A DNA stretch of 64,000 nucleotides from Alloascoidea africana (Eukaryota > Ascomycota > Alloascoideomycetes > Alloascoideales > Alloascoideaceae): the NCBI GenBank assembly GCA_030581615.1, contig JAKTTT010000014.1, positions 62,001 through 126,000 of the forward strand. The letters are read 5' to 3'. A program made the translations under genes and the position numbers. The notes beneath the pieces were generated by a model. The model searched no databases. It was not told the origin of the DNA and saw only the letters and a list, made by a program, of their open reading frames with translations. Shown here piece by piece: positions 22,269 to 37,868 of this stretch (position 1 is the stretch's first letter; every line of letters starts with the position of its first letter).

Positions 22269-23691
22269 ATGCCAGAACGGGGGCCAGATTTATGGCTTGA
22301 AGAGATCAAGAAATGCCGATCTTTACCTGAGTCGGATATGAAGCAACTGTGCGAGATGGTGAAAGAGCTTTTGATGGAAGGTGAGTTGAAGCAAGCGAGA
22401 TTCTGAGAAGAAAACACAGAACGGCCTTTCTTTGCATTTGTCCTCTTGATTTCCTGGTATTGGACTATTGCTGCTGTATTGTAGTGATGGTCGGGCAACG
22501 ATTTTGAGACCCAAAGCGAGTTCCCCAAAGCCTTTGGAAAACTTGATGTATATCTAACATGGCTGGTCTCATCTCCAGAATCGAACATTCAGCCGATCAA
22601 GTCTCCAGTAACTGTTTGCGGGTATGTTTGGCGATTATCTCTTGCTCTATTATCAACTGTTTATATTGATCTAACAAATTCCGTCGGTTGAAAGTGGTAC
22701 GAATCATACGATAGCGCAAGGATTCATGATTCCGGAAAACTTGCTAACAAATCAACATTTTGCCAATTTTTTTTTTTTTACAGATATACATGGTCAGTTC
22801 CACGATCTGTTGGAACTGTTTAGGATAAGTGGAGGACTCCCAGATTCGGTGAACTATATATTTCTCGGCGACTATGTGGATAGAGGATACTTTAGTCTGG
22901 AGACTTTTACGCTCTTGATGGTTTTAAAAGTCAAGTAAGGGACATTTGGGTTTGTGTGATTATCGGGATATGGGCTTTTACTAATGGGATTGAATCACAG
23001 ATACCCTAGTCGAATAACGATGGTTCGGGGAAACCATGAGACAAGACAGATCACCCAAGTTTACGGGTTTTATGGTAGGACGAAAAATCAAGGAGTAAAT
23101 TGGGGAGGATAAATCGAACTGACACATGCTTTTTTGTTTCTAGAGGAGTGTCTTAACAAGTATGGAAGCACCACGGTGTGGAAATACTGCTGCCAGGTTT
23201 TCGACTTTCTCACGCTGGCAGCCATCATCGACGGGCAGATTCTATGTGTTCACGGCGGACTGAGCCCAGAGATCCGGATGCTGGACCAGATCCGCGTTCT
23301 CTCGCGGGCTCAGGAGGTCCCCCACGAAGGAGGCTTCTGTGACCTGGTCTGGTCGGACCCAGACAATGTAGACTCCTGGGCAGTCTCACCGCGAGGAGCA
23401 GGCTGGCTGTTTGGAGCGAGGGTCGCACGCGAGTTCAACCAGGTCAACAACCTGTCGCTGATCGCGCGCGCGCACCAGCTCGTGATGGAGGGCTTCCGGT
23501 ACCATTTCGAAGAGAAGGACGTGGTGACGGTGTGGTCCGCGCCCAACTACTGCTACCGGTGCGGGAACGTGGCGTCGGTGATGAAGATCGAAGAGGATCT
23601 GGTGCCCAAGTTCAAGATCTTCAGTGCGGTTCCGGACGACACCGCGCGAATGGCGCCGCAGAGAACGCAGCGCAGCGAGTACTTTTTGTAG
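22269..23691 (+). CDS. PPH3: Pph3, PP4-type protein phosphatase catalytic subunit (6 exons, one of 2 nt)
   Basis: Ser/Thr phosphatase of the PP2A/PP4 group, acting in DNA-damage recovery. Exons 22269-22380, 22579-22621, 22695-22696, 22784-22934, 23001-23074 and 23144-23691 give 309 aa, matching Pph3 (about 308). Metal and catalytic motifs: [37 protein letters not shown], then [47 protein letters not shown] and the C-terminal YFL methylation tail. EVPHEG and the tail favour PP4 over Ppg1 or Sit4. GDIHG can only be made by joining GG (22620-22621), TG (22695-22696) and AT at 22784. Both flanking introns have CTAAC branch sites. Codon use becomes GC-rich in the last exon. Confidence 0.93.
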
Positions 23692-23883: not shown

Positions 23884-25961
23884 ATGGCTTCCGTTGAACA
23901 GCGCGAGGACAGCCCAGCCCAAGCGTCCCGTAGACGGAGGAAGCGAGTGAGAACCGGTATGTGTCCCCGTCGTCCACGCTGCCCTGCCCCTGCTGCTCCA
24001 TTAACAATCTCAAACAGGATGGTAAGCGTCACGTCCGCTGGCATCAGAGTATCCTTCACCTCTAACAGCACCCGGCCCATGGATCGAATGCCCTGTTAGC
24101 TTGACCTGCCGCAAGAGACACCTCAAATGTATGGCTTTGGTACCGCGCCGCCCGTCGGCTTGTGTTTGTGTCCCAAGGTCTAACCCTTTTCCTTTTTGGC
24201 CTCGTTTAGGCGACGAAAAACGGCCTTTGTGCGGCGTATGTGTGATCCAGGACCAATTTTAATCGCCGTTTTCTAACACCCTGGGGAATCAGAACTGTCT
24301 ACGTTCCAAAAGAGACTGCAGATGGGGGCTCTCGCTCACATTCGTGGAGACCCAACTGTGCAAAAACGGTCATTTTCTCGAAATTGCAAACAATTACAAC
24401 TGTAAGTTGGGGGACTAAAAAGCCAAGAAAAAAATACACATATATGGCCCATGCAACTAACACATGTGTGTGCAAATACGCAAAAGGGAAAATAATCGAC
24501 GAGTCTCTGCTCGTGGCCTCGGACTATTTGACAGATGAAGAATTGCTCACCCACCAGAAAAAGCTACAGAGAGAGGTCACCACGCCATACTCCCAGTGTA
24601 TGCCCGTGCCAAAGCCTCTGACAGCGTCCCCGATTCCGGCCTCAGTTCGCACGGTCGACAGGAAAGTCGTTTCCAAGGGGATAGCGTCTCCGGCAACAGA
24701 CGTCGAGGCCGCGACTTTTTTACGATTCTTTATCGAGGATACGGCGTTCCTGTACGATGTTTTCAACCCTTACAACATTTTTACAATTGTTGCTCCGGCC
24801 TTAGCCGACTCGGAGCCCTTTTTGATGAATGCTATCCTTGCGTGCGGCTCCACCTCTTATCTCAAACTATTCCCAAATCAGAAACCACTGCATAGACCAC
24901 AAGAGTACCATCAAAAAGTCCTCGAGTTGAAAATGGCTGGAACTTGTTCAAACATGGAGGCGAAAAGTATGGCCTACACTTTCCTCCTTACCTATAATCT
25001 GATGCACGCTAAAACAAATTGTGAACTCGATCGGGCCTGGTTTTATGACCTTTACAACCAATTGGAATCGGATTATGAATGGGATCCAAACCCTCAACCA
25101 GGAACTTTCCCCGTGAATTCCATGGTGGCTGAAGCTTGTTTTTGGGCTTGCGTTTCCCTCGACTTTATCACCTCTTTCTGCCGCAGAATACCCCCTTGCT
25201 TCGATCCCAACGTCTGGGGTGCTAAAGTAAACATTGAAACTATCCCTGAAGATGCTTCAGATGTTTGGTGGCTTCATTACGTCATTTACGCCAATCTCAG
25301 AGTGTATTGGTTCAAATCAACTTTTAAGAATTCAACATCTGCAGAATCAATTACTTATTGGAATCATATGGTAAGTACAATTGAAGCTTGGGAGGCAAGA
25401 ATGCCTTACCCCTTGACTGCAATTGGCAAAGTCCCAGCACGTAATGAAATCCCCCAGGCTGAACAACATTTGTACCAGGTAATCTATACTCTTAATTCTC
25501 AAAAATATTTCCCCAAATTCTTGTTTCTGTCTCGAGCCTCTGCGATTCTTCATATTTTTTGTCAAACTTTGCTCATAATTGCGTTTGAGATAAGGCCTAG
25601 TCATCCAAGCGCTAAGCAGTTAAAGTCGAAATGGCACAATTCAAATGATGAGAACAATGGTCAGCAACAGCAAGAACCCTCGAGTAATCGTAATGGTTCC
25701 TCACCCATCCCAATGTTTGAAGTTTTGCATTCTTTGCTGGGTGCATTTCTCTCTATTAAGGACTGGAGATTAGGAATGATTTTGATCCCTGCAGTATACG
25801 CTGCTGAACCGTTTTTCATGATGGATGAAGAGAGAAAAATCATAAAGAAACATGTAACTGAAGTGCTGAGCAATCATGGATATCACAAGGGATATCTCAA
25901 GTATCTTCTTAGTGGACCACTAACCTCTTCGGATCTACTAGATACGTCTCTGAAACGATGA
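23884..25961 (+). CDS. Zn2Cys6 transcription factor (6 exons, one of 4 nt)
   Basis: Fungal binuclear zinc-cluster regulator. Exons 23884-23956, 24018-24021, 24100-24128, 24210-24235, 24293-24401 and 24487-25961 give 571 aa. The DNA-binding domain is spread over five exons: basic RRRRKRVRTG, then CLTCRKRHLKCDEKRPLCG plus NCLRSKRDC, exactly CX2CX6CX6CX2CX6C. The 4-nt exon GATG supplies the end of Gly and the first two bases of the first Cys codon. Introns use GTATGT, GTAAGC, GTATGG, GTATGT and GTAAGT donors, most with TAAC-type branch sites. The rest resembles the fungal-specific regulatory domain (VEAATFLRFFIEDTAFLYDV, ACGSTSYL). The regulated pathway is unknown. Confidence 0.88.
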
Positions 25962-37632: not shown

Positions 37633-37868
37633 TTTAGTAGAGAAAGCGTGTGATTAACTTAATATAATGTCTGTGGGTATTCATAGAGACTAATCTACAG
37701 TAGTTCATCTAACCCTGTGCCAATCTCATTTCTTTGGAATTGGTAGTGGAGGTGGAGGTGTATACACTTGTTGTCCAATAGGTGCAACCGAAAATGATCC
37801 TCCCTCCATACTGAGAAAAAGATTTCAGCTTCCACCACTCCACGATCGCAAAGCAGACAGTAGTAGCC

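Follow-up and report, generated by a model that had tools for sequence, protein, structure and literature searches.

Recursive splice sites, at which an acceptor abuts a donor, are used sequentially and leave no exon behind. Among the closest described systems is the Fusarium CYP621A gene, which contains a 1-nt exon that is RNA-confirmed and occurs in 20 orthologs, and the same paper refers to earlier reports of 2 to 5 bp exons in Arabidopsis, Drosophila, and humans (PMC12940212). In plants, 1-nt exons of APC11 and VPS55 are experimentally proven (PMC8831610); the Arabidopsis APC11 exon, also experimentally proven, lies in a 422-nt interval, and for it Guo and Liu proposed intron definition plus recursive splicing, in a paper that treats recursive splice sites as well (PMC4674806). 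A further arrangement is that of the stwintrons sensu lato in the reticulon gene of Lipomyces, where packed U2 introns are excised in consecutive reactions (PMC7138796). Because 1-nt exons are RNA-confirmed in Fusarium and in plants, spliceosomes are capable of handling such exons, and the view of the initial annotation that a 2-nt exon stands at the edge of what spliceosomes are known to define is therefore overstated.

The window analyzed here is a 64,000-nt stretch of the yeast Alloascoidea africana (C14:62001-126000 of a 23.18-Mb genome in 138 contigs), and on its plus strand, at 22269-23691, it contains a PPP phosphatase gene with six predicted exons and five introns. Exon 1 (22269-22380, 112 nt) begins with the ATG and is followed by a 198-nt intron (22381-22578, GTGAGT..CTAAC..CCAG) and by exon 2 (22579-22621, 43 nt), whose 3' end reads GTT TGC GG. 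The first of two flanking introns (22622-22694, 73 nt, phase 2) runs GTATGT..CTAAC..AAAG with its branch-site-like CTAAC at 22671-22675, and the second (22697-22783, 87 nt, phase 1) runs GTACGA..CTAAC..T13..ACAG with its branch-site-like CTAAC at 22744-22748; in each, the acceptor is the first AG downstream of that element. Between them stands the putative 2-nt exon TG (22695-22696), which would complete the Gly codon of the GDIHG motif with its first letter and open the Asp codon with its second, and exon 4 (22784-22934, 151 nt) starts AT ATA CAT GGT, the remainder of Asp followed by Ile-His-Gly. A 66-nt intron (22935-23000, GTAAGG..CTAAT..ACAG), exon 5 (23001-23074, 74 nt), a 69-nt intron (23075-23143, GTAGGA..CTGAC..CTAG), and a last exon of 548 nt (23144-23691) running through the TAG stop complete the gene. 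The coordinates and motifs given around TG by the initial annotation are all present in the sequence from 22621 through 22784. Its reading of the junction as GGT GAT ATA CAT within a 309-aa protein also stands, as the six joined exons give a 930-nt coding sequence that is open up to a sole stop at its end, and, judged by eye, CTG read as leucine suits the conserved positions of this protein.

Against the Pfam Metallophos model (PF00149), the 309-aa protein scores 153.2 bits with a curated cut-off of 21.5, which places it among the PPP phosphatases; in NCBIfam it matched bacterial phosphatase models only, all far under their cut-offs, and no subfamily name was obtained from that collection. The gene had been called PPH3, and it is this name, not the 2-nt exon, that fails from the original reading, since the exon is upheld by splice signals, frame, and alignment. 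Identity of the protein is 84% with Sit4 and 65% with PP6C versus 56% with Pph3 and 61% with PP4C, and 55% with Ppg1 and 59% with PP2A, where the PP2A value comes from the PP2A alignment and the other reference sequences were drawn up informally when the window protein was already known. Because identities are highest to Sit4 and PP6C and a Pph3-like gene lies at another locus, the window gene is most likely SIT4/PP6, as far as these informal references can place it. That other locus is an ORF on contig C54 (L016, 8374-9270) whose protein is 73% identical to Pph3 and 72% to PP4C, with 58% to Sit4 and 60% to PP6C, and an ORF on contig C26 (L017, 27500-28357) encodes a protein nearest to Ppg1 (69%), both measured with the same informal references. 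These two ORFs, which are of similar length, are likely the PPH3/PP4 and PPG1 genes of the same yeast, and they are intron-free over the matched span, compared with five introns in the window gene.

Among 11 scanned paralogous loci, the motif GD[IVT]HG is unbroken in 10, the exception being L023 on contig C25. In two PP1-like loci, L027 and L028 (contigs C22 and C51), an intron appears by eye to stop two codons short of GDIHG, at sites that seem, also by eye, to differ from the intron positions of the window gene. Such a genome is expected to contain a PP2A gene, with higher similarity than any of these. A close PP2A catalytic subunit (PPH21/22) was not found in the genome, where human PP2A is matched best over a long stretch by the PPH3-like ORF (60%), and the gene may lie in a gap, in DNA outside the search, or among unscored candidates. 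Short pieces of the window gene match human PP2A at 66-71%. A pattern search for relatives of the window protein gave zero matches in viral contigs and 25 in genome contigs, none of the latter encoding a relative.

The case for the TG exon begins with the reading frame. As had been claimed, joining 22621 directly to 22784 puts the frame wrong; the product stops after residue 64. With TG included, the protein aligns to human PP2A, whose structure is solved, over residues 7-308. In the three alignments listed, all to PP2A alpha, there is no gap across the SPVTVCGDIHG junction, and the PP2A residues that face the region around it are CPVTVCGDVHGQFHDL. The Asp and His of the GDIHG motif are ligands of the catalytic metals. 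We then enumerated the ways in which the motif could be made, requiring the conserved protein on either side of the junction. For single introns, the enumeration covered all deletions of 25 nt or more that begin no earlier than 22595 and end no later than 22799, whatever their end letters; for pairs, it covered GT/GC..AG introns with the same minimum length, in either order and whether nested or serial. Exactly one GT/GC-AG pair restores VCGDIHG, namely 22622-22694 with 22697-22783, a serial pair that is reached in both orders of removal. The single-intron solutions are two, with ends GT-AC or TA-CA, so that TG is the unique solution when splice ends are standard. The TG thus identified stands between two complete GT-AG introns, each with a branch-like site, and is required for both the frame and the conserved motif.

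The quality of the splice sites was assessed with an ab initio gene model that had learned from 63 genes and 32 introns in 264 kb of the same contig, a set that did not include the phosphatase gene. The donor GTATGT at 22622 scores 6.02 and GTACGA at 22697 scores 3.72, and these rank first and second among the 10 GT dinucleotides in 22601-22790; the acceptors at 22694 and 22783 likewise rank first and second among the 4 AG in that interval. At the other three introns of the gene, donor scores are 7.43, 4.39, and 2.08, the last belonging to the intron at 23075-23143, so that GTACGA is weak, yet not the weakest. It is absent from the 32 training introns, of which 6 have AAG acceptors. The distance from the branch A to the acceptor end is 20 nt in the first flanking intron and 36 nt in the second. 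Among the 32 called introns, the median length is 76.5 nt, the 75th percentile 140, and the 90th 251, and the two flanking introns are short, at 73 and 87 nt, which is what recognition of an intron through the pairing of its own ends would lead one to expect.

Over the 2.8-kb neighborhood, the model returned the exact six-exon structure, TG included, in 3 of 10 settings and was without the gene in the other 7; with training penalties 19/14, no gene was called at the locus. In every setting in which the gene is called, 22697-22783 is an intron. Over the full 264 kb, for which the score thresholds were chosen after the local results, three of the four settings called TG. Run 14/8 gave 34 internal exons, of which TG alone was no longer than 15 nt, and the gene scored 5.3 with the threshold, set after the local results, at 5. 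Runs 12/8 and 14/14 contain respectively three and four further exons of 15 nt or less besides TG (53 and 48 internal exons), and run 16/14 contains none, TG included, among 18. From the other tiny exons in runs 12/8 and 14/14, it follows that the model yields false tiny exons. In both of these runs the model of the gene also carries a 4-nt exon at 24018-24021, and in run 14/14 the gene is fused to its downstream neighbor, for which reasons the gene ends given by the model are untrustworthy. The 4-nt exon and an 11-nt exon at 37747-37757 were rejected as artefacts, as their models fuse neighboring genes; elsewhere on the contig, the 264-kb runs gave further tiny exons of 3 nt (one run), 0 nt, and 15 nt.

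Considered together, these features indicate that the locus is very probably a SIT4/PP6-type gene in which the 2-nt TG is a constitutive exon separating two short complete introns of U2 type, and four other explanations were weighed against it. One is an assembly error, in which two bases are missing at the exon edge, a single normal intron of about 162 nt is present, and TG arises by chance. An intron of 162 nt would be ordinary among those called on this contig, a T13 homopolymer (22767-22779) ends 4 nt upstream of the exon, and the only match of the stretch in the genome is itself, which leaves no second copy for comparison. The T13 run is a likely slip site in sequencing, though not where two bases are needed, as the missing bases would have to lie outside it. 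How often chance alone would supply such an exon was estimated with the pattern AG-NG-GT, each half being at least 45 nt, with a donor of at least 3.7 and an acceptor of at least 8.9. Placed between the fixed ends of the 162-nt interval were either its own dinucleotide-shuffled interior (20,000 shuffles) or one of 20,000 windows from the same contig outside called genes. An equally good NG exon never appeared in the 20,000 shuffles and appeared once in the 20,000 genomic windows, which argues against a coincidental TG. With thresholds relaxed to 2.0 and 6.0, the counts were 7 and 20, and with lengths of 2, 5, 8, 11, or 14 nt allowed they were 57 and 240, in each case per 20,000 shuffles and 20,000 genomic windows. 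As the site was picked from the whole window, these relaxed figures need multiplying by the number of introns inspected; the chance stays small after such multiplication, and a coincidence with a 2-nt frame gap would be needed too. We therefore regard an assembly error as improbable.

Even less probable are two explanations that draw the introns differently. A single 160-nt GT-AC intron (22622-22781) would leave an exon beginning AG AT ATA CAT, reading GGA GAT ATA CAT, and is one of the two single-intron solutions found when any end letters are allowed, the other having TA-CA ends. It would require cleavage two bases upstream of a well-placed CAG, and its donor GTATGTTT departs from the U12 consensus; the U2 and U6 snRNAs were found in the genome and those of U12 and U6atac were not, a negative that is no proof of absence given that the search gave no match in a control genome. 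The other would have only 22622-22694 as an intron and would read 22697-22783 as coding, giving a protein of 338 aa in which 29 additional residues separate Gly from Asp. The frame is indeed open across all 87 nt, but the insert, which includes FFFF from the T run, disrupts a GDxHG motif that is unbroken in nearly all the paralogous loci scanned, and a donor, CTAAC, T run, and ACAG are all present in the stretch, which the model makes an intron in every call of the gene. The most improbable of the four, to the point of being negligible, is a pair of nested introns of stwintron type without an intervening exon. It has a precedent in the stwintrons described in the intron-rich yeast genus Lipomyces (PMC7138796), but zero nested GT/GC-AG combinations in the enumeration restore the motif, the only solution being serial. 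As a separate observation, there are four reticulon-like loci in this genome, on contigs C61, C38, C87, and C18 (L009-L014), and those on C38, C87, and C18 seem to be intron-split within the conserved domain.

With the constitutive TG exon as the preferred reading, each flanking intron is equipped with a donor, a CTAAC branch-like site, and a first-AG acceptor of its own, and each may be recognized by intron definition, through the pairing of its own ends. The two introns would be excised consecutively and not together, because sites 2 nt apart could hardly be occupied at once. Whichever intron is excised first would consume a site that is needed for skipping, which would then be impossible. 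Were the first donor instead paired directly with the last acceptor, TG would be skipped and the protein would end at residue 64. Translation of the remaining products gives a stop after residue 74 if the first flanking intron or both are retained, and retention of 22697-22783 alone adds 29 stop-free codons between Gly and Asp within a 338-aa open frame. The different products raise the thought that TG might act as a splicing switch on Sit4/PP6, with inclusion giving an active enzyme, skipping a truncated message, and failure to excise only the weak-donor intron 22697-22783 a full-length but catalytically dead subunit perhaps able to compete for regulatory partners, though we consider such a switch doubtful.

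As for the origin of the arrangement, Nelson and Syed suggested for the Fusarium gene that the loss of a base at an exon edge was compensated by a cryptic intronic exon (PMC12940212). The TG exon may have arisen in this way, a cryptic exon rescuing an exon-edge loss, or else a second intron may have been gained 2 nt from an old one. An origin of the flanking introns by duplication of one another was tried and rejected, the best local match between them being 14 columns around CTAACAAAT, with a shuffle test value of 0.50.

If confirmed by RNA, TG would rank among the shortest known exons and would add a yeast housekeeping phosphatase to the genes that have ultra-short exons. It would also offer a compact natural test case for intron definition, because skipping, one-intron retention, and inclusion yield distinct readable products. 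Automatic annotation would probably miscall the SIT4/PP6 gene. In the literature searched, no paper was found with phrases for a 2-nt exon, and since exons of 2 to 5 bp were reported earlier, as the Fusarium paper states (PMC12940212), we make no claim that TG is the first of its length.

The putative TG exon is another case of a known type of ultra-short exon for which Fusarium CYP621A provides the precedent, and in both fungi the exon lies in a conserved enzyme motif, is essential to the frame, and stands between GT-AG introns; the interval, 162 nt here against a median of 76.5 nt, is counted as a further likeness. The two differ in that TG has 2 nt rather than 1 and belongs to a phosphatase rather than a P450, and in that the Fusarium exon is documented by RNA reads and 20 orthologs, whereas TG is predicted from the sequence (PMC12940212). 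With the 1-nt exons of plant APC11 and VPS55, it shares its extreme shortness and its necessity for the frame (PMC4674806, PMC8831610), but unlike the experimentally proven APC11 exon, it is in a yeast gene and in an interval shorter than 422 nt (PMC4674806). Like the reticulon stwintrons of Lipomyces, the locus has two packed U2 introns in an intron-bearing yeast, their excision here being presumably consecutive, but the Lipomyces introns are nested with no exon bases between them, and those described here are serial around TG (PMC7138796). Finally, the near-abutting acceptor and donor resemble a recursive splice site, from which TG differs in that two coding bases would be kept.
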